Shown here piece by piece: positions 1 through 41,028 of a stretch of 64,000 bases of DNA (positions within the stretch are counted from its first letter, which is position 1; each line of letters opens with the position of its first letter). This stretch comes from Sulfitobacter sp. SK011 (GTDB lineage Bacteria; Pseudomonadota; Alphaproteobacteria; Rhodobacterales; Rhodobacteraceae): assembly GCF_003352065.1 (NCBI RefSeq), contig NZ_CP025803.1, positions 372,001 through 436,000 on the forward strand, read 5' to 3'. Both the position numbers and the translations under genes were made by a program. Under the pieces are notes generated by a model. That model was not told where the DNA came from and ran no database searches. It was given only the letters and a program-made list of their open reading frames with translations.

Positions 1-554
1 CCAAAGCGGCCGCACACGACCCGCAAAGAGGGTCCAAACCGAAGCCATAATTGGTCAACTGTCGCGGTCATGATCGCCGCATTTGCGCAGTCATAGATAA
101 ACGCATGAAACCGATAATTATGGGTAAGATAACCGCCGACATCGCCCTGCTCGATCGCCATATTCAGATCGTCATCACAGCTTCGAAGATGGGCAAGTTG
201 AGCCGTGGTTATCCGATTTGCAGCGCGCCTTGTCAGCTCGGGTTCGAGCGCTTTCCTCATAAAACCAAGCTCTTCGACGCTTTCAGCAGTCAGAATAGGG
301 ACGCTGACCCGGCGATTGCCCTGATGGGTCAGCGCGCCCTCGGCGATCAGCCGACGAAGCGCTTCACGCACCGGTGTCATGCCCACACCCAGCTCTGAGG
401 TCAGCCCTTGAATTGTGACCGCCTGTCCGGGTGCCAGATCACCAAAGAGGATCATCGCCCGCAGACGCTCGTAGACGTGCTGATGCACAGGTGCCTTTCC
501 GGTATCCTCAGACGTGAAGGGATTCGTCGGAGCGATCAGTTCCTGGTTCATCAT
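1..554 (-). CDS. GntR-family (FCD-type) transcriptional regulator, 3' end cut off by the window
   Basis: Reading the minus strand from an ATG at 554 (a second ATG at 551) gives an open frame of about 184 residues that runs off position 1. Residues about 20-85 form a winged helix typical of GntR regulators, with the motif VYERLRAMILFGDLAPG, then LGVGMTPVREALRRLIAEGAL and RRVSVP. The remaining part starts an FCD-like helical ligand domain (VEELGFMRKALEP, then HNYRFHAFIY). It lies divergent from the polyamine-type ABC operon starting at 722, so it is a natural candidate for its regulator; that is inference. The ribosome binding site is weak, so the exact start is uncertain. The family call is secure, the ligand unknown. 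Confidence 0.85.
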   Translation of the reverse strand, partial: MMNQELIAPTNPFTSEDTGKAPVHQHVYERLRAMILFGDLAPGQAVTIQGLTSELGVGMTPVREALRRLIAEGALTHQGNRRVSVPILTAESVEELGFMRKALEPELTRRAANRITTAQLAHLRSCDDDLNMAIEQGDVGGYLTHNYRFHAFIYDCANAAIMTATVDQLWLRFGPSLRVVCGRF

Positions 555-721
555 CAAACGCCTGCTTTATGGTCGATACCGGTTACCTTGCACCAACGTG
601 CCGTGCATGAAAGCATAAATTATCTTGCCGTGAGAGGCAAAACTTGATCAAATTAGCCAAAGGCGGGGAAAAACCCTGTCTGTATCACGTCGGTATGACG
701 TCTGTTAAACGGGAGTATTAC
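555..721. promoter_or_regulatory. Divergent promoter region between the GntR gene and the ABC transporter operon
   Basis: This 167-bp gap separates two divergent genes and must hold both promoters. It contains partly symmetric sequence around 570-586 (GGTCGATACCGGTTACC) that could be a GntR-type operator. A GGGAG ribosome binding site at about 711 serves the binding-protein gene. No operator has been demonstrated; the assignment rests on position only. Confidence 0.4.
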
Positions 722-1807
722 ATGAAACTTGGAATTTTGGGCAGCGTTGCTGCCACGGCCTTGCTTGCATCCACGGCGATTGCCGAAGAGGTGCGCGTCT
801 ACAACTGGTCTGACTATATTGACGAATCTCTGCTCGAAAAGTTTGAGACGGAAACCGGCATTGATCTGATCTATGACGTGTTTGACAGCAACGAGGTTCT
901 GGAAACCAAGATGCTGGCCGGTGGGTCAGGCTATGACGTGGTTGTGCCATCGGGCACATTCTTACAGCGCCAGATCACGGCGGGCGCATTTCAGAAGCTG
1001 GACCAGTCCAAGCTGACCAACTCTGGCAACATGTGGGATGTGATCAACACCCGTGTGGCGAAATATGACCCCGACAACCAATATGCGATCAACTATATGT
1101 GGGGCACCACGGGCATTGGCGTGAACATCAACAAGGTCAAGGAAGTGCTGGGCGACGATGCGCCTGTTGGCTCATTGGCGTTGATTTTTGAACCAGAAAA
1201 CATGGAAAAACTGTCTGCCTGCGGTGTGCATTTTCTTGATGCCCCGGCAGAGATCATTCCGGCGGCACTGGCCTATATGGGCGAAGACCCCGACAGCCAG
1301 GACCCCGATGTCATTGCAACGGTAGAGCCGACGCTGACAGCGGTGGCCCCGTTTGTGCAGAAATTCCACAGCTCTGAATACATCAATGCGCTGGCGAATG
1401 GCGACATCTGCGTGGCGTTCGGCTGGTCCGGCGACATCTTGCAGGCGCGTGACCGTGCGGCAGAAGCGGACAATGGTGTCGAAATTGAATTCAATGCACC
1501 CAGCGAAGGGGCGTTGATGTGGTTCGACAACATGGCGATCCCGGTGGATGCGCCAAACCCGGAGGGCGCGCATAAGTTCCTGAACTTTATCATGGACGCG
1601 CAGAACATGGCGGCGGCATCGAACTATGTCTATTACGCCAACGGCAATCTGGCCTCACAGGAGTTTCTGGAAGAAGACGTGATCGGTGATCCGGCGATTT
1701 ATCCGACACCTGAAACACTTGAGAATCTCTACACCACGTCGCCTTATGGCCCCAAGGTGCAGCGGGTTGTGACGCGGCTTTGGACCAAGATCAAATCCGG
1801 TACCTGA
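722..1807 (+). CDS. potF: Periplasmic spermidine/putrescine-type substrate-binding protein
   Basis: A 361-residue secreted solute-binding protein of the PotD/PotF family, expected to capture polyamines in the periplasm for the permease encoded next. The first ~23 residues are a signal peptide ending in STAIA before EEVRVYNWSDYID, the canonical PotD/PotF mature start. Family features follow: FETETGIDLIYDVFDSNEVLETKML, YDVVVPSG and AINYMWGTTGIGVN. I chose the ATG at 722 rather than the upstream in-frame codon at 644 because it has a GGGAG ribosome binding site and begins the signal peptide. It is followed by a hairpin terminator and then the ATPase gene. The adjacent amine oxidase suggests putrescine, but the substrate is inferred and the symbol is by family resemblance. 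Confidence 0.88.
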   Translation: MKLGILGSVAATALLASTAIAEEVRVYNWSDYIDESLLEKFETETGIDLIYDVFDSNEVLETKMLAGGSGYDVVVPSGTFLQRQITAGAFQKLDQSKLTNSGNMWDVINTRVAKYDPDNQYAINYMWGTTGIGVNINKVKEVLGDDAPVGSLALIFEPENMEKLSACGVHFLDAPAEIIPAALAYMGEDPDSQDPDVIATVEPTLTAVAPFVQKFHSSEYINALANGDICVAFGWSGDILQARDRAAEADNGVEIEFNAPSEGALMWFDNMAIPVDAPNPEGAHKFLNFIMDAQNMAAASNYVYYANGNLASQEFLEEDVIGDPAIYPTPETLENLYTTSPYGPKVQRVVTRLWTKIKSGT

Positions 1808-1820
1808 AGTTTTCTGACAA

Positions 1821-1852
1821 AGGGCGAGGCAATATCAGCCTCGCCCTTTTTT
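1821..1852 (+). terminator. Intergenic hairpin with T-run between binding-protein and ATPase genes
   Basis: Ten bases at 1821-1830 (AGGGCGAGGC) pair with 1838-1847 (GCCTCGCCCT) around a 7-nt loop, followed by a run of six T at 1847-1852. This is a textbook intrinsic terminator inside the operon. It probably acts as a partial terminator, so that the binding protein is made in excess over the membrane parts. Confidence 0.85.
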
Positions 1853-1891
1853 GACTGCCAAGACCTCCCGAACAAATGAAAGAAGCACCCT

Positions 1892-3019
1892 GTGAGCCAG
1901 ACCGTTTTTGCACCTTGGGATGATCCTAACGAAAAGCCACTGATCCGGTTTGAGAATGTCACCAAGAAATTTGGCGAGTTTGTCGCCATCGACGATCTCA
2001 CGTTGGATATCTATGCCCAGGAATTTTTTGCGCTGCTGGGGCCATCAGGATGCGGCAAGACGACAATGATGCGCATGCTGGCCGGGTTTGAAAACCCGAC
2101 AGAAGGCAAGATGGAATTGGCCGGACAAGACATCGCCGATGTGCCGCCCAACAAACGCGCCGTCAACATGATGTTTCAGTCTTATGCTTTGTTCCCGCAT
2201 CTGAGCATTTGGGAAAACATCGCCTTTGGTCTCAAGCGTGACAAGCAAAGCAAAGATCAGATTGCGGCACGGGTTGATGAGATGCTCAAGCTCACCCGGC
2301 TGGAAAAATTTGCACAACGCAAACCACATCAGATATCGGGTGGTCAGCGGCAGCGTGTTGCATTGGCGCGGTCTTTGGCCAAGGCACCGAAACTACTTTT
2401 GCTGGACGAACCTCTGGGCGCGCTGGACAAGAAATTGCGCCAAGATACCCAGTTTGAGTTGATGGACATTCAGGAAACGACGGGCACCACATTCGTGATC
2501 GTAACCCACGATCAGGAAGAAGCAATGACCGTGGCATCCCGCGTGGCGGTGATGGACGAAGGCCGGATCATTCAGGTGTCCACCCCGGCGGCGATTTATG
2601 AATATCCAAATTCAGTTTATGTCGCGGATTTCATCGGCGAAGTGAACATCATTGAGGCCACAGCAAAAGCAGTGGGCAAAGATAAGTATCACCTCGACTG
2701 GGCTGAGGGGCAGGACCCGATCGTTGCAATGTCTGAGCACCCCTTCAGCGATGGGCAAAAGGCGCATCTTGCCATTCGACCCGAAAAGATTGGCATCAGC
2801 ACTGAAAAACCCAAGGACGCGGCAAATGCGCTGCAGGGCAAGGTTCTGGACATCGCATATCTTGGCAACCTTTCGACCTATCATGTGGAACTGCCCGGTG
2901 GTCAGATCATCAAGGCGCAGACTGCAAACACCCGCCGTCTTGCACGGCGAGACATCACCTGGGAAGATCCCGTCTGGATTTCATGGAGCGCGACCGCCGG
3001 CGTGTTGTTGGCGCAATGA
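1892..3019 (+). CDS. potA: Polyamine-type ABC transporter ATP-binding protein
   Basis: A 375-residue ATPase energising the importer at the cytoplasmic face. It shows a Walker A motif GPSGCGKTT, the Q-loop region MMFQSYALFPH, the signature ISGGQRQRVALARSL, Walker B LLLLDEPLGALD and the switch histidine in VTHDQEE. A TOBE-like C-terminal regulatory domain follows (about residues 290-370, including LAIRPEKIGI). The start is GTG, giving MSQTVFAPWDD. The stop codon overlaps the ATG of the first permease gene. Length and order are standard for PotA. Confidence 0.9.
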   Translation: MSQTVFAPWDDPNEKPLIRFENVTKKFGEFVAIDDLTLDIYAQEFFALLGPSGCGKTTMMRMLAGFENPTEGKMELAGQDIADVPPNKRAVNMMFQSYALFPHLSIWENIAFGLKRDKQSKDQIAARVDEMLKLTRLEKFAQRKPHQISGGQRQRVALARSLAKAPKLLLLDEPLGALDKKLRQDTQFELMDIQETTGTTFVIVTHDQEEAMTVASRVAVMDEGRIIQVSTPAAIYEYPNSVYVADFIGEVNIIEATAKAVGKDKYHLDWAEGQDPIVAMSEHPFSDGQKAHLAIRPEKIGISTEKPKDAANALQGKVLDIAYLGNLSTYHVELPGGQIIKAQTANTRRLARRDITWEDPVWISWSATAGVLLAQ

Positions 3020-3894
3020 TGCGGCGTTTTGCTCTGATTGCAGTTCCCTATGCATGGCTCCTGGTGCTGTTTCTGGTGCCGTTCATTATCGTTTTCAAAA
3101 TCTCGCTGTCTGATACGGCACTGGCGATCCCGCCTTATACCCCAACCTTGCGCGACGGCTTGGGTGCCCTTCTGGCAGAATTGGATTTTGAGAATTTTGC
3201 CTTCATCGCGTCGGACGATCTGTATTGGAAAGCCTACCTCAGTTCCTTGCGCATTGCGGTGATATCAACGTTCTGCACGCTCTTGGTGGGGTATCCCATT
3301 GCTTACGGCATGGCCAAAGCGCCCGAAGAATGGCGGCCAACCTTGATGATGCTGGTGATCCTGCCGTTCTGGACCAGTTTTCTGATCCGGGTCTATGCAT
3401 GGATGGGTATCCTCAGCACCGAAGGATTGCTGAACCAGTTTTTACTGTGGTTGGGTGTTATCGGCGAGCCTTTGACGATCCTGAACACAAATACAGCCGT
3501 CTATATTGGTATCGTTTATACCTATCTGCCGTTTATGATCCTGCCGATTTACGCAGCGCTCGACCGGTTGGATGAATCCCTGAACGAGGCGGCAGAGGAC
3601 CTTGGCTGTTCGCGCACGCAGGCGTTTTGGCTGGTCACGATCCCCTTGTCCAAGAACGGTATCATTGCCGGGTGTTTCCTGGTCTTTATTCCGGCGCTGG
3701 GCGAATTTGTGATCCCCTCGTTGCTGGGCGGTTCCGGCACGCTGATGATCGGCAAGGTGCTGTGGGAAGAGTTCTTTAACAACCGAGACTGGCCCGTCGC
3801 GAGCGCGGTTGCGGTGATCTTGTTGTTGATCCTGATCATCCCGATTGTGCTGTTTCAGCGGAACCAGCAAAAGCAAGCGGAGGCAGAACAATGA
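3016..3894 (+). CDS. potB: Polyamine-type ABC transporter permease, first subunit
   Basis: A 292-residue inner-membrane permease of the PotB/PotH type with about six hydrophobic spans. The coupling loop EAAEDLGCSRTQAFWLVTIPLSKNG matches the EAA motif that docks onto the ATPase. I start it at the ATG at 3016, whose ATGA overlaps the stop of the ATPase gene, rather than at an ATG at 2983 inside that gene; a second ATG follows directly at 3019. It pairs with the next gene to form the translocation pore. Confidence 0.88.
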   Translation: MMRRFALIAVPYAWLLVLFLVPFIIVFKISLSDTALAIPPYTPTLRDGLGALLAELDFENFAFIASDDLYWKAYLSSLRIAVISTFCTLLVGYPIAYGMAKAPEEWRPTLMMLVILPFWTSFLIRVYAWMGILSTEGLLNQFLLWLGVIGEPLTILNTNTAVYIGIVYTYLPFMILPIYAALDRLDESLNEAAEDLGCSRTQAFWLVTIPLSKNGIIAGCFLVFIPALGEFVIPSLLGGSGTLMIGKVLWEEFFNNRDWPVASAVAVILLLILIIPIVLFQRNQQKQAEAEQ

Positions 3895-4712
3895 AGCGTC
3901 TCAGCTGGTTCAATGTGACTTCTCTGACCCTGGGGTTTGCGTTTCTCTATATCCCGATGATCATTTTGATCATTTACAGCTTTAACGCAGGTAAATTGGT
4001 GACGGTCTGGGCCGGGTTTTCGACCAAATGGTATGGCACCCTGTTCCAGAATGAAGCGTTCATGAACGCTGCGTGGGTTACGATCAAAGTCGCTGTCATC
4101 TCATCCACCTTTGCCACAATCCTTGGCACGATGGCGGCCTATGTGTTGGTGCGTGGTGGACGTTTCATGGGACGCACGCTGTTTTCGGGCATGATATATG
4201 CGCCGCTGGTCATGCCCGAAGTGATAACCGGTCTGTCCTTGCTGCTCTTGTTCATTGGCATCGGGTTGGACCGTGGGGTGCTGACCATCGTTCTGGCGCA
4301 TACCACGTTTTCGATGTGCTACGTTTCGGTTGTGGTGTCGTCGCGGCTGGTCACTTTTGACCGGTCTTTGGAAGAAGCAGCACTCGATCTGGGGTCGTCC
4401 CCCTGGGAGGCGTTCCGGTTGGTGACACTGCCCATCATCGCACCTGCGGTTATTTCCGGCTGGCTTCTGGCCTTTACACTCAGCCTTGATGATCTGGTGA
4501 TCGCCTCGTTTACCTCAGGGCCATCCGCCACAACCTTGCCGATCAAAATATTCAGCGCGGTGCGTTTGGGTGTGTCGCCCGAGATCAATGCGTTGTCGAC
4601 GATCATGATTGCGATTGTAACCATCGGCGTGATCAGCGCCTCTTTGGTCAGTAAACGCAATTCCCTGCGTGCCCAAAAAGATACGCAAGCGGCGGAACGC
4701 ACTGCTGAATGA
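3891..4712 (+). CDS. potC: Polyamine-type ABC transporter permease, second subunit
   Basis: A 273-residue inner-membrane permease of the PotC/PotI type. Six hydrophobic spans are visible, and the EAA loop reads EEAALDLGSSPWEAFRLVTLPIIAP. The start ATG overlaps the stop of the preceding permease (ATGA), and its own stop overlaps the oxidase gene in the same way, so all four are translationally coupled. Confidence 0.88.
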   Translation: MKRLSWFNVTSLTLGFAFLYIPMIILIIYSFNAGKLVTVWAGFSTKWYGTLFQNEAFMNAAWVTIKVAVISSTFATILGTMAAYVLVRGGRFMGRTLFSGMIYAPLVMPEVITGLSLLLLFIGIGLDRGVLTIVLAHTTFSMCYVSVVVSSRLVTFDRSLEEAALDLGSSPWEAFRLVTLPIIAPAVISGWLLAFTLSLDDLVIASFTSGPSATTLPIKIFSAVRLGVSPEINALSTIMIAIVTIGVISASLVSKRNSLRAQKDTQAAERTAE

Positions 4713-6037
4713 AGCGTATCTATCCGGACTTCGCCTATAGCGATGCGCCCCGTGCGGGATGCTGGTGGGATGAAACCTGCCAAGCGCCCGAGCGGCCTGC
4801 GTTGGCAGGTGATCACCGATGTGATGTGGCCATTGTCGGCGGTGGGTTTACGGGCGTTTCAGCGGCTCTGCATCTGGCAGAAGCAGGGGTTGCCGCAACT
4901 GTGCTAGAGAACCGCTATGTTGGATGGGGTGCGTCCGGACGTAACGGCGGGTTCTGCTGTCTGGGTGGCGGCATGCTGGACAACGCGGCATTGGACAAAA
5001 AGGTTGGTCGATCCGGGCGTGATCAATGGCGACAGACCGAACTTGCGGCGGTCAAACTGGTTGAGGACCTGATCACCCGGTTCAACTTTGATGTCGGTCG
5101 CCATTCTGACGGCGAAACCCAATTGGCACACCGTCCCAAAGATATGGAACAGATGCGCCGCAAGCTTGACTATTTTGCCGAGAATTACGGCGTAAAGGCG
5201 CGGCTGACAGAGCAGGCAGATCTAAAGTCCGAGGGCATGAACGCGGGTTTTTATGGCGCTCTGACTGTGCCCATTGGTTTTGGTCTTAACCCCCGCAAGT
5301 ACCTCTTTGGATTGGCAGCGGCGGCGGAAAATGCGGGCGCGCAAATATTTCACGAAACACCTGTGAGCCGCATCACAAGGCATGCCGGAACGTTCCGCAT
5401 CCAAACGCCAAATGGCACGGTGACCGCCGAAAAAGTCATTATCGCCACCAATGGGTATTCATCCGAAGACCTGCCGGAGTGGTTGGCCGCGCGCTATATG
5501 CCCACGCAATCCAGTATTATCGTTACGCGGCCCATGTCTCAGACCGAACTGGGCGCGCAGGGATGGACAAGCGGTCAGGCGTCCTATGATACGCGCCATC
5601 TGCTGCATTATTTTCGGCTGATGCCAGACAATCGCATGTTGTTTGGTGTCCGTGGAGGGCTGATGGCAAACGCTGCATCAGAGGCGCGCGCCATCAACCG
5701 CGCACGTACCGATTTTGAAGCGATGTTCCCCGCCTGGCGCAACGTTGAAACGCCGCATGCGTGGTCCGGTATGGTCTGTATCGCCCGAAACAGAATGCCG
5801 TTTGTTGGCGAAATACCGGGCGAGAATGGCATGTTCACCAGCCTTTGCTATCACGGAAATGGCGTTGCCATGGCCAGCTATTCCGGCGCACTGCTGGCGG
5901 ATATCGTGCAAGAAAAAGAACCAACGAAAATCTATCCGGAAGTGGTGAAACGCCCGCTTGCGCGATTTGAGTTGGGGCGTTTTAGGCGCGCAATCATGCC
6001 TTTTGCCTATGCCGGTTTTGCGCTGTCTGATCGATGA
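4709..6037 (+). CDS. FAD-dependent amine oxidase (gamma-glutamylputrescine oxidase-like)
   Basis: A 442-residue flavoprotein of the DAO/PuuB family. Residues about 38-65 (CDVAIVGGGFTGVSAALHLAEAG) form the dinucleotide-binding fold, followed by WGASGRNGGFCCLGGG, typical of this family. The C-terminal part carries MVCIARNRMPFVGEIPGENGMF and YHGNGVAMASYSG. PuuB oxidises gamma-glutamylputrescine; coupling to a polyamine importer by an ATGA overlap supports a catabolic role for an imported amine. No glutamylpolyamine synthetase (puuA) is visible in the window, so the exact substrate remains inference. Confidence 0.82.
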   Translation: MKRIYPDFAYSDAPRAGCWWDETCQAPERPALAGDHRCDVAIVGGGFTGVSAALHLAEAGVAATVLENRYVGWGASGRNGGFCCLGGGMLDNAALDKKVGRSGRDQWRQTELAAVKLVEDLITRFNFDVGRHSDGETQLAHRPKDMEQMRRKLDYFAENYGVKARLTEQADLKSEGMNAGFYGALTVPIGFGLNPRKYLFGLAAAAENAGAQIFHETPVSRITRHAGTFRIQTPNGTVTAEKVIIATNGYSSEDLPEWLAARYMPTQSSIIVTRPMSQTELGAQGWTSGQASYDTRHLLHYFRLMPDNRMLFGVRGGLMANAASEARAINRARTDFEAMFPAWRNVETPHAWSGMVCIARNRMPFVGEIPGENGMFTSLCYHGNGVAMASYSGALLADIVQEKEPTKIYPEVVKRPLARFELGRFRRAIMPFAYAGFALSDR

Positions 6038-29700: not shown

Positions 29701-29975
29701 GGATGATGCGCCATGGGTTCCGAGGTGCAGCTGAGGTGGCAGCGACGCTTGATAACCTTGCTGCTTTTGCGCATCTCACCCGTGAGGTGCCGGCGCATCT
29801 GATTGACCTCTACTTTGATGCAACGCTGGGCCGCGACGATCTGGTTGCCTTTATGGAGGCGGAAAACCCACAGTCCCTGCAGGAAATGCGCGATCGTTTT
29901 ACGGCCCTGCGCGATGCCGGTTTGTGGATCACGCGCCGCAATTCGATCAGCGCCCAGATGGACATGGCAGAATGA
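26733..29975 (+). CDS. cobN: Cobaltochelatase large subunit CobN
   Basis: A 1080-residue subunit that binds hydrogenobyrinic acid a,c-diamide and inserts cobalt with CobS and CobT, which are not in this window. Hallmarks are FSGRGGDGTSPLDAPGCPVFQ, the block HIGAHGTLEWLPGKAVALS, PTGRNLYSVDPRSVPSRAAY and LVVDLWGSATMRTAGEE. It is shorter than the roughly 1270-residue Pseudomonas protein but runs through all these blocks without a break. The ATG follows cobW by three bases and its stop overlaps cobG (ATGA). Confidence 0.96.
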   Translation: MHVVFRESHGLEDADTPFDPGQTPADLVVLSFSDSDLGAFAAGWHRGGGPDGKLPTLRLCNLVALRHPASVDNYVEATLTGVKGILIRLIGGENYWPYGIMQVQDFARRNGIALAVLPADGREDPALDAHSTLPVSTLRRLSHLCDAGGAVAAQAALAQLALAAGLYAGPVLGAKTVPDCGFYDPDLGVVPFADTQGDAIAVTFYRSYLTAADTSPVDAMIKALRDRGFNAIGLFVPSLKAERARSFLGAALAQIDPVAIVNATAFSGRGGDGTSPLDAPGCPVFQIALSTARQKEWADSERGLSPADLAMHVVLPEVDGRIFTGVVSFKAPQKKDPDLQFSRFAHRADQDRIAAVADRVLGWHRLGQTPAKDRKLALVLSTYPGRADQIAHAVGLDALASVEDMLLTLAGAGYSAEPSIGFGKTLTQQTVKWPLSAYQTAVARLPKALRADLETAWGAPETDPLFAGGAFHFPAQTCGNALVALQPERGSIAARDTDYHDLARVPRHSYVAFYLWLQAQGMDALVHIGAHGTLEWLPGKAVALSNDCWPEALTGRMPVIYPFIVNDPGEAAQAKRRIGAVTLGHLPPPMKDSETPDGLLRLERLLDEYSTADGLDPARRDRLIETIRSEAQAAGVESDLGLTEDASAAEAITRIDRFVCDIKESQYGDGLHVYGAGKGEFEGLLAALDGKRVTSGPSGSPYRGRTDVLPTGRNLYSVDPRSVPSRAAYAQGVKLAEELLRRHLQDQGDWPKGLVVDLWGSATMRTAGEEVAMALHLAGLAPKWDDGSERVSGFEILPLTLLNRPRIDVTLRVSGLFRDVFPGLSQLFEAGATALAAREEAPDMNPYLTQAPRVFGPKPGLYGMNMESALHDYSDAGRDAAGEAWLKGSEWAINAQGEAHQDRAALEARLHGADGFAHVQDLTETDVLLAADYASHEGGFAAAMAHLGAEKPAIYHVDSTVVGTPRARTMPEEIARVVRARAANPDWASGMMRHGFRGAAEVAATLDNLAAFAHLTREVPAHLIDLYFDATLGRDDLVAFMEAENPQSLQEMRDRFTALRDAGLWITRRNSISAQMDMAE

Positions 29976-31102
29976 GTGGCGCACCTCAGATAAAAGGCTG
30001 GTGCCCCGGCGCGCTGCGCCCGATGCTGTCTGGCGATGGATGGGTCGTGCGCGTGCGCCCCTATGGCGGCAGGTTGCGCCGCGCGCAGGCAGATGGCCTT
30101 GCCACGTTGGCTGCGGCGCATGGCAATGGCATGTTTGACCTGTCGGGTCGTGGCAACATTCAGATGCGCGGCGTGCGCGAAGACAGCCACAGACCACTGA
30201 TCGAAGGGCTGCGCCGCATGTCACTGGTGGACGCGGACGCCAGCGTTGAAGGGCGGCGGAATATTCTTGTCACGCCGTTCTGGCAATCCGGGGACGACAC
30301 GGAGCTTTTCGCCGCTGAGTTGACCCAGGCTTTGGCAGCACCGGATGCGCCCGCATTGCCCGGCAAATTTGGTTTTGCCATCGACACGGGGCGTCTGCCG
30401 GTCTTGCAAACCGCATCTGCGGATATCCGGTTGGAACGTGACGCGGGCGGCGGGCTGATCCTTGTTGCGGATGGGGCTGATACTGGCAAACCAGTGACGT
30501 CTGAAACCGCCGTGGATGAGGCTGTTGCACTGGCGCGTTGGTTTATGGTCACCTGCAAAAATCACATGCGGATGGGTCGGCTGATGACCGCAGGCGCAGC
30601 CTTGCCACCCGGTTTCATGGTTCCGCGGCAGACCCAAAGTTATGTTCCAAAACCCGGCCATACGCCCTTGGGTGCCATGATTGCTTTGGCGTTTGGACAA
30701 ATGACATCGGAAACACTTGCAACGCTTGCAAAACACGGCGGGCTGCGGATGACGCCATGGCGGATGCTGCTGGTCGAAAGCGCGCGGCAACTGCCACAGA
30801 TTGATGGGATCATCACCGACGCCAATGACCCGTTGCTGCGCGTTGTGGCCTGTACCGGTGCACCTGGTTGTGGCCAAGGCCTTGGACCCACACGCGACGT
30901 TGCGCGCGCGCTTGCACCGCATGTGCCGTGCGGACAAACGTTACATGTCTCAGGCTGTGCCAAAGGGTGCGCGCACCCCGGTGCGTCGGCGTTAACGATC
31001 ACGGCGACCGAAACTGCGTACGATCTGATCCGGAACGGCAGGGCGTCTGATGCCCCTGAACAAACCAAACTCACCCCCGACACTTTAATCAAGGCGATCT
31101 GA
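29972..31102 (+). CDS. cobG: Precorrin-3B synthase CobG
   Basis: A 376-residue monooxygenase that hydroxylates precorrin-3A and forms the lactone of precorrin-3B using oxygen, so the pathway is the aerobic one. It resembles nitrite/sulphite reductase half domains, starting KGWCPGALRPMLSGDGW and carrying GRGNIQMRG. The [4Fe-4S] cluster ligands are visible as CTGAPGCGQG and VSGCAKGCAHPG. The start ATG at 29972 overlaps the cobN stop, and its stop shares a base with cobH. Confidence 0.93.
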   Translation: MSGAPQIKGWCPGALRPMLSGDGWVVRVRPYGGRLRRAQADGLATLAAAHGNGMFDLSGRGNIQMRGVREDSHRPLIEGLRRMSLVDADASVEGRRNILVTPFWQSGDDTELFAAELTQALAAPDAPALPGKFGFAIDTGRLPVLQTASADIRLERDAGGGLILVADGADTGKPVTSETAVDEAVALARWFMVTCKNHMRMGRLMTAGAALPPGFMVPRQTQSYVPKPGHTPLGAMIALAFGQMTSETLATLAKHGGLRMTPWRMLLVESARQLPQIDGIITDANDPLLRVVACTGAPGCGQGLGPTRDVARALAPHVPCGQTLHVSGCAKGCAHPGASALTITATETAYDLIRNGRASDAPEQTKLTPDTLIKAI

Positions 31103-32466: not shown

Positions 32467-33209
32467 CAGGCCAGACCAAAGGATGGATCGCCATCGCAGG
32501 GCTGGGGCCAGGGCGCGATGATCTGGTAACACCTGAGGTGTCTCAGGTCTTGATGCAGGCCACCGATGTCATCGGTTACATTCCCTACGTTGCACGTGTG
32601 GCCCCACGTGAGGGGCTGAACCTGCATCCAACCGACAACCGGGTTGAGATTGACCGCGCGCTTCATGCGCTGCAACTGGCCGCGACAGGGGCACGTGTTG
32701 TTGTGGTGTCCTCCGGTGATCCCGGCGTATTTGCAATGGCTTCCGCTGTTTTTGAGGCGCTGGAAAACCACCCCGAGTTTGCCGAAACAGACATCCGCGT
32801 GTTGCCCGGCATCACCGCGATGCTTGCGGCTGCTGCTGCTGCCGGTGCGCCATTGGGGCATGATTTTTGCGCGATCAACCTAAGTGATAATCTCAAGCCA
32901 TGGGCAACGGTCGAGCACCGATTACGCTTGGCGGCGCGGGCGGACTTTGCAATGGCGTTTTACAATCCCCGTTCCAAATCGCGCCCGCATCAATTCACCG
33001 AATGTCTGAACATCCTGAGACAGGAATGTGGGCTGGACCGTCTGATCACCTTTGCCCGCGCCGTGAGCACCCCAGAACAGAGGATCAGCACGGTCACACT
33101 GGGCGAGGCGACCCCAGATATGGCAGATATGCGCACCGTTGTGCTGGTCGGCAACGCCGCCACACGACGGGTCGGGCGGTATGTTTATACGCCCCGGTCG
33201 GCGTCATGA
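32463..33209 (+). CDS. cobJ: Precorrin-3B C17-methyltransferase CobJ
   Basis: A 248-residue methylase that methylates C17 with ring contraction to give precorrin-4. Segments include IAIAGLGPGRDDLVTPEV, VVSSGDPGVFAMASAVFE, LPGITAMLAAAAAAGAPLGHDF and AFYNPRSKSRP. The ATG at 32463 overlaps the cobI stop. The last 25 bases are antisense to the end of cobK. Confidence 0.95.
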   Translation: MTGQTKGWIAIAGLGPGRDDLVTPEVSQVLMQATDVIGYIPYVARVAPREGLNLHPTDNRVEIDRALHALQLAATGARVVVVSSGDPGVFAMASAVFEALENHPEFAETDIRVLPGITAMLAAAAAAGAPLGHDFCAINLSDNLKPWATVEHRLRLAARADFAMAFYNPRSKSRPHQFTECLNILRQECGLDRLITFARAVSTPEQRISTVTLGEATPDMADMRTVVLVGNAATRRVGRYVYTPRSAS

Positions 33210-33931
33210 CCCAGCCACGCCATCACCTCGGCCACGCCACCGGCGGTGACGTCACCCGGCAAGATAGGGCGGTTTGCCATGATCACCGGCAGGCCCAGAG
33301 TACGGGCGGCATCCAGCTTGGCCCGCGCGCCCACGCCGCCGGCATTCTTCGCCACGACATGCGTGATGGCGTGTTCCTGCATCAAGGCGACATCCCCTTG
33401 GATCGTAAAGGGCCCCCGCGCCAGCAACACCGTGACATCGGGCAAGGGCAGTTCCGCGTCCGGTGCATCCACCAGCCGCAGCACATAGTGATGCTGTGGT
33501 TTGGCGGCAAAGAGGCCAATCTGTTGTTTGCCGATTGCCAGAAACACCCGCGCGGGCGGGTCCGGCAGGGCCGCGGGAATTTCATTGATTGTCGGCACAA
33601 GCGTCCAGTTGTCACCGGGCCCAGCGGCCCATGGCGCGCGCTCAAATCGGATCAGCGGAACCCCGGCATCGCGACAGGCGGCAAAGGCATTCTTGCTCAT
33701 GCCCGCAGCAAATGGATGGGTGGCGTCGATGACATGGGTGATTTTCTTTTCGCCCAAATACTCAATCAACCCCGCCACACCACCAAAACCGCCGATACGG
33801 GTGGACAACGGTTGCGGCACCGGGGATTTGGTGCGCCCCGCATAGGAGTAAACCGCATCGATCCCCGCATCAAACAAAGCTGTGGCCATCTGGCCCGCTT
33901 CGGTTGTGCCACCCAGCAAGAGGACGCGCAT
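33185..33931 (-). CDS. cobK: Precorrin-6A reductase CobK, inverted within the cob operon
   Basis: A 248-residue NADPH-dependent reductase that converts precorrin-6A to precorrin-6B. It starts MRVLLLGGTTEAGQMATAL, followed by VIDATHPFAAGMSKNAF, then IGKQQIGLFA and ITHVVAKNAGG. It is the only cob gene on the minus strand. Its ATG (33931-33929) overlaps the ATG of cobL (33930-33932) head to head, and its 3' end overlaps cobJ by 25 bases. Its promoter must therefore lie inside cobL. Confidence 0.94.
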   Translation of the reverse strand: MRVLLLGGTTEAGQMATALFDAGIDAVYSYAGRTKSPVPQPLSTRIGGFGGVAGLIEYLGEKKITHVIDATHPFAAGMSKNAFAACRDAGVPLIRFERAPWAAGPGDNWTLVPTINEIPAALPDPPARVFLAIGKQQIGLFAAKPQHHYVLRLVDAPDAELPLPDVTVLLARGPFTIQGDVALMQEHAITHVVAKNAGGVGARAKLDAARTLGLPVIMANRPILPGDVTAGGVAEVMAWLGHDADRGV

Positions 33932-35114
33932 GATGGGTGATCCTTGGCTTAGCATCATTGGAATGGCTGACGATAGCGCGACAAACCTGCCGCCTGCAAG
34001 CCGTGCCGCCCTTGACGCGGCGGATGTAATTTTCGGCGGTCCACGACATCTGGAATTGGCGGACGCAGGCGCACGTGGTCGGCCGTGGCCAATTCCCTTT
34101 TCCATTGAGCCGGTGCTGGCCCATCGCAGTCAGCGCGTTGCCGTTCTTGCCTCAGGCGATCCATTTTGGTTTGGCGCTGGCGCAAGCCTCGCGACCCATC
34201 TGCAGCCAGACGAATGGCGGGTGTTCCCGGCACCCTCCACGTTCGCATGGGTCGCGGGCCATCTTGGCTGGCGGTTGGAGGATACGACCTGCCACGGCCT
34301 GCATGCCACGCCTTTTGAACGGCTTCGTGGGGTGCTGGCACCGGGTGGCCAAATGATCTGTCTGGTCCGCGACGGGGATGCACCGCAGGCATTGGCGGCG
34401 TGGTTGACCGGACAGGGCGCAGGTGCGGCGACCCTTTGGATTTGCGAACGGATGGGCGGCGATGCACAGCGCGTGCGTCGATCCACAGCCGGGGAATTTG
34501 ACCTTTCAGACATTGCAGCACCGGTGGCCGTTGCCATCGCCTTGCCCGACAATGTCGGCCTCTCGCGCGCATCTGGGTTGCCAGACGACAGCTTTGCCCA
34601 CGATGGACAGATCACCAAACGACCCATCCGGGCGCTGACCTTGTCTGCGATTGGCCCACGCGCCGACGAATTGCTCTGGGACATTGGTGCCGGGTCCGGG
34701 TCGATCTCGGTAGAATGGTGTCTGGCCGGTGGCCGTTCAATCGCATTTGAACAGCACGCGACACGTGTCGCCAACATCGCACAGAACATCGAGGATTTTG
34801 GCATCGGCCACCGCATGTCGGTTGTTCAGGGCGATGCAGCCACCGCAGTGCAGGACCATCCGGCCCCAGCCGCCGTGTTCGTCGGCGGGGGCGGGAACGC
34901 GGCGTTGTTTGACCATCTGTTTGATCTGCTGCCCAAAGGCACGCGACTTGTGGCCAATGGGGTGACCCTGGAAACCGAAAGCCTGTTGGCACATCTTCAT
35001 GCCAAAATGGGCGGTGATCTGTTGCGCATTGAACTGGCGCAAGCCGCACCGCTTGGCCGGATGCGCGGCTGGGCATCGGCACGCCCCGTTGTGCAATGGA
35101 GTGTTACGTTATGA
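33930..35114 (+). CDS. cobL: Precorrin-6Y C5,15-methyltransferase (decarboxylating) CobL
   Basis: A 394-residue fusion of CbiE-like (residues 1-205) and CbiT-like (about 215-394) domains. It methylates C5 and C15 and decarboxylates ring C. The first domain contains DVIFGGPRHLELA and LASGDPFWFGAGASL; the second has the SAM-binding motif LLWDIGAGSGSISVEWC and VFVGGGGNAALFD. The first of two tandem ATGs (33930, 33933) is used. Its stop overlaps cobE. Confidence 0.93.
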   Translation: MMGDPWLSIIGMADDSATNLPPASRAALDAADVIFGGPRHLELADAGARGRPWPIPFSIEPVLAHRSQRVAVLASGDPFWFGAGASLATHLQPDEWRVFPAPSTFAWVAGHLGWRLEDTTCHGLHATPFERLRGVLAPGGQMICLVRDGDAPQALAAWLTGQGAGAATLWICERMGGDAQRVRRSTAGEFDLSDIAAPVAVAIALPDNVGLSRASGLPDDSFAHDGQITKRPIRALTLSAIGPRADELLWDIGAGSGSISVEWCLAGGRSIAFEQHATRVANIAQNIEDFGIGHRMSVVQGDAATAVQDHPAPAAVFVGGGGNAALFDHLFDLLPKGTRLVANGVTLETESLLAHLHAKMGGDLLRIELAQAAPLGRMRGWASARPVVQWSVTL

Positions 35115-35479
35115 GATTTGCTGGCATCGGATTTCGCGGCGCGGCGGATTTGGCAAGCCTGCAGGACGCATTGCAAAAAGCCATCAGCGCAACCGACGGC
35201 GGTGCAGTTGATGCGCTGGTAAGCGAGGCTTCAAAGGCCCGTGAAAAAGTGTTTCGCGAGTTGGCGCAGGCGATGCGCATTCCGGGCATGGGTGTGACGC
35301 AGACGGATATGGCTCAGATGCTCACGCCGACCCAATCCGCCCGCATTCAAGATAAATTTGGCACAGGCTCATTGGCCGAAGCCGCGGCCCTTGTCGCCGC
35401 CGGACCGGGTGCGCGATTGCTTGCAGAGCGGGTGATCTCAAGCGATGGTATGGCCACTGCGGCGATTGCCGAGAATTAA
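35111..35479 (+). CDS. cobE: CobE, CbiG C-terminal-domain protein
   Basis: A 122-residue protein of the CobE/CbiG-C family: [19 protein letters not shown] at the start and the ending [21 protein letters not shown]. CobE is needed in the aerobic pathway but its precise step is not established. The ATG at 35111 overlaps the cobL stop. The last 102 bases lie in the first unit of an exact tandem repeat, yet the reading frame is complete. Confidence 0.85.
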
Positions 35480-35837
35480 GGGGAAACAAGCCTGTGACGG
35501 TACATTTCATTGGCGCAGGGCCGGGTGCCCCTGATCTGATCACATTGCGCGGGCGTGACCTGATCGCGGCCTGTCCTGTGTGTCTATTTGCCGGGTCTTT
35601 GGTGCCCGAAGCCGCGGCCCTTGTCGCCGCCGGACCGGGTGCGCGATTGCTTGCAGAGCGGGTGATCTCAAGCGATGGTATGGCCACTGCGGCGATTGCC
35701 GAGAATTAAGGGGAAACAAGCCTGTGACGGTACATTTCATTGGCGCAGGGCCGGGTGCCCCTGATCTGATCACATTGCGCGGGCGTGACCTGATCGCGGC
35801 CTGTCCTGTGTGTCTATTTGCCGGGTCTTTGGTGCCC
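35378..35837 (+). repeat. Exact 230-bp tandem duplication across the cobE/cobM junction
   Basis: Positions 35378-35607 and 35608-35837 are identical by eye over 230 bases. The unit runs from inside the end of cobE through the gap (with AAGGGG ribosome binding site) to codon 38 of cobM. The original borders share the 8-mer CCGAAGCC, which recurs at the end of the second unit, as expected for duplication between short repeats. Because 230 is not a multiple of three, the first copy of cobM is shifted into a cobE tail. Confidence 0.95.
35494..35709 (+). pseudogene. Chimeric 71-codon frame: cobM start fused to cobE tail
   Basis: The first duplicated copy of the cobM start (GTG at 35494, with the same AAGGGG site as the true gene) reads [18 protein letters not shown] for 38 codons. 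It then crosses the duplication joint into the cobE tail in the native cobE frame ([17 protein letters not shown]), ending at 35709. The product would be a dead methylase fragment with a CobE tail. Its stop lies 14 bases before the true cobM start, the same spacing as cobE to cobM, so coupling can persist. Confidence 0.85.
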
Positions 35838-36509
35838 GAAGCCTTGCTTTCGCATTGCCCCGAAGGGGCGCAGGTGGTCAACACGGCGCGTATGTCGCTG
35901 GATGAGATTATCGAGGTGATCGCGCAGGCGGACGCGGCGGGTCATGATGTGGCGCGGCTGCATTCTGGTGATCTCTCGGTCTGGTCCGCGATGGGCGAAC
36001 AACTGCGCCGATTGCGCGCGCTCGGTATCGCGTATGACGTCACGCCCGGTGTGCCGTCCTTTGCCGCTGCGGCGGCCGAACTTGGTGCTGAACTGACGCT
36101 TCCCGGTGTCGTTCAATCCGTGATCCTGACCCGCACGTCGGGGCGTGCCACGGCAATGCCTGATGGCGAAACGCTTGAGAACTTTGCGAAAACGGGGGCG
36201 ACGCTGGCAATCCATCTGAGCGTTCATGTTCTGGACAAGGTGGTGACGGACCTGACCCCATTTTATGGTACCGATTGTCCGGTTGCCGTGGTCTGGCGCG
36301 CCAGTTGGCCGGATCAGCGCATCGTCAAGGCAACGCTTGCCACCCTGCAGACCGCAATCGGTGCCGAAATGGAGCGCACGGCGCTGATCCTTGTCGGGCA
36401 CGCGCTGGGGTCCGAAGATTTTGGTGAAAGCCGGCTTTATGCCGGTGATTATGATCGGCGATTCCGGCCTGTTGGCACAGACCCGCGCTTTCCGGAGACA
36501 GCCGAATGA
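35724..36509 (+). CDS. cobM: Precorrin-4 C11-methyltransferase CobM
   Basis: A 261-residue methylase that adds the C11 methyl to precorrin-4. Family segments are [36 protein letters not shown] and [19 protein letters not shown], with [10 protein letters not shown] later. The start is GTG at 35724 with AAGGGG upstream, in the second unit of the tandem duplication. The stop overlaps cobB. Confidence 0.94.
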
Positions 36510-37831
36510 TCCCCCCCGGCATTCTGATTTCCGCACCCTCATCAGGCACCGGCAAGACCACGCTGATGCTGGGCCTTTTGGCCGCGCTCAAGGCGCAAGG
36601 CGTCAACGTGCAGCCCTTCAAAAGCGGCCCGGACTATATTGACCCTGCCTTCCATACGGCCGCATCAGGGCGCGCATCTTTCAACCTTGATAGCTGGTCG
36701 ATGGACCGTGCGCGTATCGACGGTTTGACAGGAAACGCGGCGGGCGCAGATTTGATCCTTGCCGAAGGGTCGATGGGGCTGTTTGACGGTGTGGCGGTGC
36801 CGGGCGCGTGCGGAAATGGCGCAAGTGCTGATGTTGCGGCCCTGATGGGCTGGCCTGTGGTTCTGGTTCTGGATGTGTCCGGTGCAGCGCAATCGGTGGC
36901 GGCGACGGCGCTAGGTTTCAAACTGATGCGCCCGGATGTGACATTGGCGGGCGTGGTCCTGAACCGCGTGGCGTCTCCGCGCCATGATACCCTGGTGCGG
37001 GTCGGGATGGCGCAGGTCGGCGTAACCGTGCTGGGGTCCTTGCCTCGACGGACAGCGATTGAAATGCCTGAACGCCATCTGGGATTAGTGCAGGCCGGAG
37101 AACAGGAAAACCTGCCGCAGCTTTTGGCAGAGGCCGCAGCGTTTGTGACTGAACATGTGGACATCGCAGCCATTCGCGCAGCAGCCGCCGGGACGATGAC
37201 CGATGCACCCCCGCCAGCAAAGATACCGCCGCCCGGGGGCCGCATTGCGCTGGCACAGGACAATGCCTTTGCCTTTGTCTATCCGCATCTGTTGGCCGGT
37301 TGGCGTGCTGCGGGCGCAGAAATTCTGCCATTCTCACCGCTGGCGGATGAGGCACCGGATGTCAGCGCTGATGTGTGCTGGCTGCCCGGCGGGTATCCTG
37401 AATTGCATGCAGGGAAACTGGCGGCGGCGGCGCATTTCCGCACCGGATTGCAAAGCTTTGCCCAGACCAAACCCGTGCACGGCGAATGCGGCGGCTACAT
37501 GGCGATGGGGACCGGAATTATCGACAAGGATGGTGTGCGTCACGAGATGGCAGGCCTCTTGGGATTGGAGACGTCTTTTGCCAAACGCAAGATGCACCTT
37601 GGCTATCGCAAAGCGGACCTGAACGCAGCGATCCCCGGTCATGATGCGCGGGCCCGGCTGCGCGGGCATGAATTTCACTATGCCACCATTCTGACCGAAC
37701 CTGATGCGCCCTTGGCGCACATCACCGACAGCAACGATCTGGACGTGCCGGAAACCGGATCGGTGCGGACCTTTGAAGGTGGCGGACGCGCGACGGGCAC
37801 GTTTTTTCATATGATCGCTGAGGCACCATGA
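36506..37831 (+). CDS. cobB: Hydrogenobyrinic acid a,c-diamide synthase CobB
   Basis: A 441-residue glutamine-dependent amidase that amidates the a and c side chains, giving the substrate of the CobNST chelatase. The N-terminal nucleotide-binding part has [21 protein letters not shown] and [13 protein letters not shown]. The C-terminal glutaminase domain carries the catalytic cysteine in [16 protein letters not shown] overlaps couple it to cobM and cobA. Confidence 0.95.
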
Positions 37832-38553
37832 ACGGCTTTGTCTCTTTTGTCTCCTCCGGGCCGGGTGATCCCGACCTGCTGACCGTCAAGGCGGTGGACC
37901 GGCTGCAAAAGGCCGAAGTGGTTCTGTTTGATGATCTGAGCGCAGGACCGATTCTGGAACACGCCAAACCTGACGCGGATCTGATTGGTGTGGGCAAACG
38001 GGCCGGGCGCGCGTCGCCGAAACAAGATCACGTCAGCCGGGTTCTGGTGGAATATGCTCAAGCTGGATTGCGGGTGGTGCGCCTCAAATCCGGTGATTGC
38101 GGTATGTTCGGACGGCTCGAAGAAGAGATCATCGCGTTGCGGGCGGCGGGCATTCCGTTTGAGATTATTCCCGGTGTGACCTCGGCCTCTGCTGCAGCGG
38201 CTACGGCAGGTATTCCATTGACCCGCCGCCTGACCGCCCGGCGGGTGCAGTTTATTACCGGCGCAGATGTCACCGGTGATTTGCCAGCCGATGTGAACAT
38301 GGCCGCTTTGGCTGACCCTCTGGCGACCACCGTTGTCTATATGGGCAAACGGACTTTTGCCGGACTGGTCGCACGTTTGATCGAACATGGGTTGCCGGGC
38401 GATACACCTGCGATGCTGGCCGAGGCGGTATCGACCCCCGCCGAAAAGGTTCAGCGATTTACGATTGCGACCCTTGCCCTCCATCTGGAAAAAGCGACAA
38501 GCACCACACCTGCGCTGATCTTTTACGGCCCATTGGCGGAGTTTGACGGGTGA
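37828..38553 (+). CDS. cobA: Uroporphyrinogen-III C-methyltransferase CobA (SUMT)
   Basis: A 241-residue methylase that makes precorrin-2 from uroporphyrinogen III, the entry step of the corrin branch. Segments are SSGPGDPDLLTVKAVDRL, VVRLKSGDCGMFGRLEEE, IIPGVTSASAAAATAGIPLT and TTVVYMGKRT. It has no siroheme (CysG-N) domain. Its TGA overlaps the GTG of the next gene. Confidence 0.94.
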   Translation: MNGFVSFVSSGPGDPDLLTVKAVDRLQKAEVVLFDDLSAGPILEHAKPDADLIGVGKRAGRASPKQDHVSRVLVEYAQAGLRVVRLKSGDCGMFGRLEEEIIALRAAGIPFEIIPGVTSASAAAATAGIPLTRRLTARRVQFITGADVTGDLPADVNMAALADPLATTVVYMGKRTFAGLVARLIEHGLPGDTPAMLAEAVSTPAEKVQRFTIATLALHLEKATSTTPALIFYGPLAEFDG

Positions 38554-38852
38554 AGGTTTTTGTCTGCAAGAGCTGTTCCGTCGAAGGTGATTTTGTCGAT
38601 GAGGTGCGCGTCGGATTGCAGGAGGTGGATGTTGTCAGTGTCGACTGCATGTCAGGCTGTGAGCGTGCACAAACGATTGCGTTCCGCAGCCCCGGCAAGG
38701 TTGCATATCTGTTCGGTGACATCACGACGGCGGACATGGACGATTTGCGAAACTTTGTGCGGCTTTATCTGGCGTCCGAAGATGGGACATTCCCGGATGC
38801 ACGCGTGCTGGGCAATCTGCGCACCAAAGCCATCGCGCGGATACCGGGATGA
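38550..38852 (+). CDS. DUF1636 family protein, second copy
   Basis: A 100-residue paralogue of the protein at 25336, with the same cysteine pattern CKSC and CMSGC about 25-30 residues later, and a similar ending TKAIARIPG compared with SLARIPPMELPK. It begins at GTG (GTGA overlap with cobA) and its stop overlaps cobF. Two copies in one corrin operon point to an auxiliary role, for example carrying electrons to CobG, which is not proven. Confidence 0.8.
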   Translation: MKVFVCKSCSVEGDFVDEVRVGLQEVDVVSVDCMSGCERAQTIAFRSPGKVAYLFGDITTADMDDLRNFVRLYLASEDGTFPDARVLGNLRTKAIARIPG

Positions 38853-39636: not shown

Positions 39637-40059
39637 CTAGGTATCCGGGTCGACTTTTCCACGCATTGCCTTGACCTCACCACGCACCTTCTTGGCCTTC
39701 AATCGCCGTTTCTTGGACCCCAAAGTGGGCCGGGTCGCGATGCGTCGCTTGGGTGGTGTCAGCGCCTTTTTAATCAGTTCCGCCAGACGATCCCGCGCGA
39801 TATCTCGATTGCGCGCCTGTGATCGGGTTTCGTCGCACTGAATGACCAGCGCACCTTCAAGCGTCCAGCGCCGACCGGCCAGCCGTCGCAGTCGCGTTTT
39901 GACCGGACCCGTCAGCGAAGGAGACGTTGCTGCCTCAAACCTCAACTCGACAGCAGACGAGACCTTGTTCACATTCTGGCCACCCGGCCCCGACGCCCGC
40001 ATGAAGGTTTCGGTCAATTCCCAGTCTTGCAGGGCAACGGTATCGGTGATGCGTAACAT
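39637..40059 (-). CDS. arfB: Alternative ribosome-rescue factor / peptidyl-tRNA hydrolase ArfB
   Basis: A 140-residue protein with the GGQ motif in ASGPGGQNVNKVSSAVELRF, the catalytic loop that releases the nascent chain on stalled ribosomes. The C-terminal 45 residues are rich in Lys and Arg (RPTLGSKKRRLKAKKVRGE), the tail that enters the mRNA channel. This matches ArfB/YaeJ in length. Confidence 0.93.
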   Translation of the reverse strand: MLRITDTVALQDWELTETFMRASGPGGQNVNKVSSAVELRFEAATSPSLTGPVKTRLRRLAGRRWTLEGALVIQCDETRSQARNRDIARDRLAELIKKALTPPKRRIATRPTLGSKKRRLKAKKVRGEVKAMRGKVDPDT

Positions 40060-40407: not shown

Positions 40408-41028
40408 TCACGCCGTCGGCATGAGCCTGCTGGTAATCATGCGGAACGGGATCAGTGCGACCAGGGCAATGCTGAGTTTCACGGCCCAATCTGCCAGCGC
40501 AAGCGAAACCCAGAGCGGGGCCGCCGGACCAAAGCCAAGCAGCGGCAGAATTTCAGCCGCCCAGGAAACGTCCGTGGCAGGGTGCACAAAAGATAGCGCA
40601 CCGGAAAAGGCGATCCCAAAGAACAATGCCGTATCAACTGTGCTGCCGATCAAAGTGCTGATCAGGGGCGCGCGCCACCAGGCACCGCCGCGCAGGGCGG
40701 CAAAGATGGAAACATCAAGAAGCTGTGCAGCAAGGAACGCCACGCCAGAACCAATTGCGATGCGCAAGGTGACCAGCGGGCCAAATTCGCCCATGATCTG
40801 GGTGCCAATCAATGAACAGATCAGGCCGACTACAAACCCGACAAGGACAACACGGCGGGCAGCCGATGCGCCATAAACGCGGTTCATCACGTCTGTGACC
40901 AGAAACGCGAAGGGGTAAGTGAATGCGCCCCAGGTCAACCACTGACCATAGAGAAATTGAACGAGGATGTTTGAGGCCACAACAATGGTGGCCATGGCAA
41001 GAATGCCGGGAAGATAAGTGCGTGTCAT
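40408..41028 (-). CDS. yhhQ: Queuosine precursor transporter (YhhQ/VUT family)
   Basis: A 206-residue inner-membrane protein with about six spans, matching the YhhQ/COG1738 family: FTYPFAFLVTDVMNRVYGA near residue 40 and LISTLIGSTVDTALFFGIAF near residue 125. YhhQ imports queuosine precursors such as preQ0 and preQ1. A likely preQ1 riboswitch lies directly upstream, which fits. The ATG at 41028 has no clear ribosome binding site, as in some riboswitch-controlled genes. Confidence 0.88.
   Translation of the reverse strand: MTRTYLPGILAMATIVVASNILVQFLYGQWLTWGAFTYPFAFLVTDVMNRVYGASAARRVVLVGFVVGLICSLIGTQIMGEFGPLVTLRIAIGSGVAFLAAQLLDVSIFAALRGGAWWRAPLISTLIGSTVDTALFFGIAFSGALSFVHPATDVSWAAEILPLLGFGPAAPLWVSLALADWAVKLSIALVALIPFRMITSRLMPTA

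Follow-up and report, generated by a model that had tools for sequence, protein, structure and literature searches.

Tandem duplications that span the junction between two neighbouring genes are already well known. Both parent genes are preserved, and a hybrid made of the 5′ part of the downstream gene and the 3′ part of the upstream gene comes to lie between them. Duplications and their endpoints have been followed in chemostat populations of Salmonella, and that study states that every duplication or deletion confirmed by experiment carried short direct repeats at its endpoints (PMC3411829). Five of six junctions with 11–27 bp of homology were verified there by padlock probe, PCR being negative where it was done; neither of the two duplication junctions tested at 7 and 9 bp of microhomology was verified, and the homology cut-off for duplication was deduced to be 11 bp (PMC3411829). 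For Escherichia coli mutation-accumulation lines, the portion of a second report used here gives no verified tandem duplication in 37 lines sequenced by Nanopore, and one true and seven false duplication calls in 104 lines sequenced by Illumina (PMC10292909).

Here, we describe a tandem repeat at the border of cobE and cobM in Sulfitobacter sp. SK011, whose genome is assembled as one contig of 4,190,786 bases. The whole stretch of DNA that we analysed, called the window below, is 64,000 bases long and covers positions 372001 to 436000 of that contig. Like the Salmonella duplications, as far as they are described in the part of the study drawn on here, the repeat consists of copies set head to tail, and a short direct repeat marks the novel junction as well as the two ends (PMC3411829). 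Unlike them, its direct repeat measures 8 bp and falls under the 11-bp cut-off, its unit is only 230 bp, and it stands in a reference assembly, whereas the Salmonella cases in that same part were minority junctions in a population (PMC3411829). One narrow literature search found no published account that joins cobE, cobM or cobalamin with tandem duplication. The features of the locus, all on the plus strand, are as follows.

35111–35479, +, cobE, intact, 122 aa, Pfam CbiG_C
35376–35605, +, repeat unit 1, 230 bp: end of cobE, gap, start of cobM
35376–35383, +, left border 8-mer CCGAAGCC, in cobE, codons GCC GAA GCC
35478–35483, +, Shine-Dalgarno-like AAGGGG, copy 1, now before the hybrid frame
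35494–35709, +, predicted cobM'-'cobE hybrid frame, 71 codons, GTG start behind AAGGGG
35606–35835, +, repeat unit 2, identical to unit 1
35606–35613, +, novel junction 8-mer CCGAAGCC, between unit 1 and unit 2
35708–35713, +, Shine-Dalgarno-like AAGGGG, copy 2, before intact cobM
35724–36509, +, cobM, intact, 261 aa, TIGR01465 cobM_cbiF
35836–35843, +, right border 8-mer CCGAAGCC, in cobM, codons CCC GAA GCC

A preliminary description of the locus had reported two identical, adjacent 230-base units, and this was borne out both by direct comparison, in which the units agree at 230 of 230 positions, and by Tandem Repeats Finder (35376–35843, period 230, 2.0 copies, 100% match, 0 indels). Identity extends 8 bases beyond unit 2, to 35843, and not at all leftward, for a total of 238 bp. 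The same 8-mer marks both borders and the junction, which supports the earlier suggestion that it was the likely substrate of the duplication; elsewhere in the window it occurs at 39, 23596 and 23602 on the same strand and once on the opposite strand. Because of this 8-bp border homology, the unit can be taken to start anywhere from 35376 to 35384, giving nine equivalent registers, and the previously given span of 35378–35837 is a valid one among them. Each unit comprises the final 104 bp of cobE, a gap of 14 bp and the initial 112 bp of cobM. As the unit holds cobE, gap and cobM sequence only, we rejected insertion of a mobile element or phage; a compositional island was likewise rejected, with GC staying between 0.60 and 0.66 across 34000–37499 when read in steps of 250 bp.

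As the duplication spans a gene–gene junction, both parent genes are whole, and the earlier claim that one intact cobE and one intact cobM are retained holds. The product of cobE passes the PF01890 (CbiG_C) cut-off over residues 4–120 (64.8 bits against 27) and reaches the cut-off of no NCBIfam model (best 31.6 against 376); the gene is named from the CbiG_C domain together with its position before cobM. CobM passes the TIGR01465 equivalog cut-off for precorrin-4 C11-methyltransferase (327.9 bits against 259.65). The 118 bases upstream of intact cobM are the same with or without the duplication, which suggests that translation of cobM should be little affected.

Between the two genes, the predicted hybrid frame joins CobM residues 1–40 to the CobE C-terminus, fused in frame because the two 8-mers lie in the same codon phase. 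The preliminary description took a chimeric 71-codon frame with a good ribosome-binding site to be translated here; such a frame is indeed present, the site being a copy of cobM's own, and its translation is a prediction. Its product matches TP_methylase over residues 2–42 only (38.2 bits, cut-off 27.8) and fails the CobM equivalog cut-off (57.4 bits against 259.65); by these models the predicted product is a fragment of CobM and not a CobM. The layout is that of known junction-spanning hybrid genes, but the hybrid here is a 71-codon fragment with no complete domain. If made, it would be expected to be unstable. It also carries a risk for annotation, as it may be called a partial cobM and so be mistaken for a broken or duplicated B12 gene.

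How unusual is such a repeat in this genome? The window and 40 stretches of 20 kb (864,000 bases, 20.6% of the contig) were scanned for repeats that are exact over 25 bp or more and have a period of 15–4999. The scan recovered 20 of 20 planted 230-bp duplications in a control limited to periods of 100–399. Apart from the 230-bp repeat, the one tandem hit was a run of 25 bases with a period of 15, and the 8 further repeat rows were dispersed, falling in three stretches (L088, L089 and L096). In L096 (G000:C1:3100001-3120000), a near-exact repeat of about 700 bp at 5153–5853 recurs 4943 bp further on, dispersed and non-tandem. The 230-bp repeat is not due to chance. A repeat-rich genome or a systematic assembly stutter was considered and rejected, as nothing else of this size was found in the 864 kb.

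We then turned to relatives. A search at the DNA level matched the locus in 34 of 60 genomes, and the closest named CobE matches, among 50 loci from which the window's own record was possibly excluded, are from Sulfitobacter. In 79 relative loci, of which 70 are distinct over the first 700 bases, cobM comes next after cobE at a distance of 7 to 155 bases, and in 78 of them a single CobM start and a single CobE end were counted. In the remaining one, L074, there is another, weak CobM-start match (40% over 30 residues) 848 bp further on, which is probably a paralogous methylase. By the same count, the window's own copy (L001) has two CobM starts and two CobE ends. Across 89 relative loci (644,402 bases, with some overlaps and some genomes represented twice), there were no exact tandem runs of at least 30 bp with a period of 30–2999, a further reason to reject a repeat-rich genome or a systematic stutter.

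Searches with the hybrid protein agree. Within the genus, 56 of 62 genomes match, and residues 1–71 are covered only in the genome of the window (G000) and in none of the 61 others. A CobM-start match, one each, was found in 48 of those 61 (E 6.2e-19 or better); the other 13 are uninformative, with 7 weak matches (E about 1e-4 to 1e-3) and 6 without any. In a sample of the family, a match was obtained in 337 of 394 genomes; of the matches listed in order of E-value, none but that of G000 covers residues 1–71 (best other E 2.0e-24, own match 1.4e-40). The expectation that close relatives carry a single unit is confirmed in the relatives examined, and an old, genus-wide duplication, which was seen in none of them, is rejected.

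The nearest relative offers a view of what the locus may have looked like before. L002, whose genome belongs to the same genus as the window, and L031, one of the named Sulfitobacter matches and identical to L002 over the first 1300 bases, have one unit, with 191 of 229 positions identical to ours. Their left place reads GGCCGAAGCT and their right place CCCGAAGCC, matching the 8-mers of the window at 7 of 8 and 8 of 8 bases, respectively, so that a 7-base direct repeat, CCGAAGC, stands at both ends of their single unit. Judged from this alignment, their arrangement appears close to the expected starting state. In L007, L010 and L033, it is the left place that carries all 8 bases and the right one that does not, so the bases may have changed in more than one order; in more distant aligned loci, one or both places differ by at least one base.

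Collectively, these data make it probable that the repeat is genuine and arose by a single microhomology-mediated tandem duplication between two 8-bp direct repeats. The substrates would have been two copies of CCGAAGCC set 230 bp apart, in Ala-Glu-Ala codons of cobE and Pro-Glu-Ala codons of cobM. Slippage, template switching or unequal exchange could each have served as the cellular pathway, and RecA-independent misalignment or template switching at the replication fork seems the most likely. The new junction would be in frame and would thereby create the cobM'-'cobE hybrid, with its copies of the cobM ribosome-binding site and the cobE stop. Reduced to a single unit, the sequence contains 28 direct repeats of at least 8 bp (periods 20–1099), 17 of them across the cobE/cobM border, including four of 9 bp and one of 10 bp, the longest. 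The 8-bp repeat taken to have been used is usable and unexceptional, and it counts against this reading that longer repeats at the border would have been passed over. A hairpin-driven event was rejected, as the 81-bp stretches around the three 8-mers contain no exact inverted repeat of 7–14 bp with a loop under 60. The duplication would be expected to be close to selectively neutral, and recombination to bring the array back to a single unit at some rate.

The preliminary description also called the event very recent. Complete identity speaks for this and makes it plausible, but 0 differences at 230 sites bound the divergence between copies only at about 1.3% (95% upper limit), a bound that holds only if gene conversion, which can keep copies identical, has not erased differences. 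The limit is roughly 8% of the divergence of the nearest relative over the unit (38/229).

If the repeat were instead an artefact of assembly, produced by an untrimmed overlap at a join, a chimeric read or a polishing error, then the cell would have one unit. Several observations fit such an origin. An exact identity of 238 bp is what an untrimmed overlap yields. The contig begins at the first base of dnaA (L112, G000:C1:1-20000, 1–1362; TIGR00362, 541.7 bits, cut-off 343.9), with dnaN next; it has therefore probably been circularised and then rotated, its original ends being joined somewhere inside, and an untrimmed overlap at that internal join would mimic an exact tandem repeat. The repeat is moreover an isolated oddity in the scanned fifth of the genome, and the relatives examined have one unit. 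Seen against the 11-bp cut-off of the Salmonella study, in the part drawn on here, 8 bp of homology is short (PMC3411829), and this, with the rarity of verified duplications, would count against a real event. Against an artefact stands the position of the borders. When breakpoints were placed blindly at this locus, with spacings of 50–599, microhomology of at least 8 bp arose in 202 of 464,475 placements (0.043%); a careless contig join is therefore unlikely, and an event guided by homology is favoured. The repeat also ends exactly on a direct repeat that, but for one base, is common to the nearest relative. An artefact that itself requires homology, such as template switching during PCR or whole-genome amplification, escapes the microhomology argument. 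The assembly error that had been raised earlier as the alternative to a recent event is thus less likely given the microhomology, yet it retains some weight, at perhaps one chance in several. Were the repeat false, it would mark a fault of assembly in a single-contig genome.

A maintained arrangement, in which either the hybrid protein or the repeat would serve a function, for instance tuning cobM output through copy number, is in our estimation very improbable. Speaking for it are the in-frame fusion, the good ribosome-binding site and the retained CobM residues 1–40, which still match TP_methylase. However, the hybrid was found in no relative examined, its match to the CobM model is that of a fragment, the 118 bases upstream of cobM are as they would be in the single-unit state, and the codon phase of the 8-mers by itself entails a fusion in frame. 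Judged by these features, there is no sign of function for the duplication or the hybrid. We give slighter credence still to an expandable and collapsible cassette, in which each added unit would supply one more complete 71-codon hybrid cistron, equipped with identical signals, and leave cobE and cobM undamaged; on that reading, the number of units might differ within the population, and the hybrid might be a nascent gene or tune cobM translation. A genuine, single duplication, which we prefer, would be a clean example of how a junction-spanning event makes a hybrid frame with no visible cost to its parent genes.

The repeat lies within a cob cluster. The protein with a NIR_SIR half domain encoded at 29924–31102 is, by its position, a candidate cobG. 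It is followed by CbiC/precorrin-8X methylmutase, two tetrapyrrole methylases and, on the minus strand, CbiJ/CobK; then come a CbiE+CbiT fusion (cobL), cobE, cobM, cobB, cobA, a DUF1636 protein and cobF. CbiJ/CobK (33185–34105, −) thus runs opposite to the plus-strand cluster around it, and its longest ORF overlaps the longest ORF of cobL. As its Pfam match starts at residue 60 of that ORF, translation probably begins at a more internal start, which would shrink or abolish the overlap with cobL. The DUF1636 protein, between cobA and cobF (38550–38852, +), scores 74.1 bits against PF07845 and has no NCBIfam match. Beside the end of the cluster, an RF-1 domain protein of 140 aa is encoded at 39637–40059 (−), and a Vut_1 putative vitamin uptake transporter lies nearby at 40408–41028 (−).
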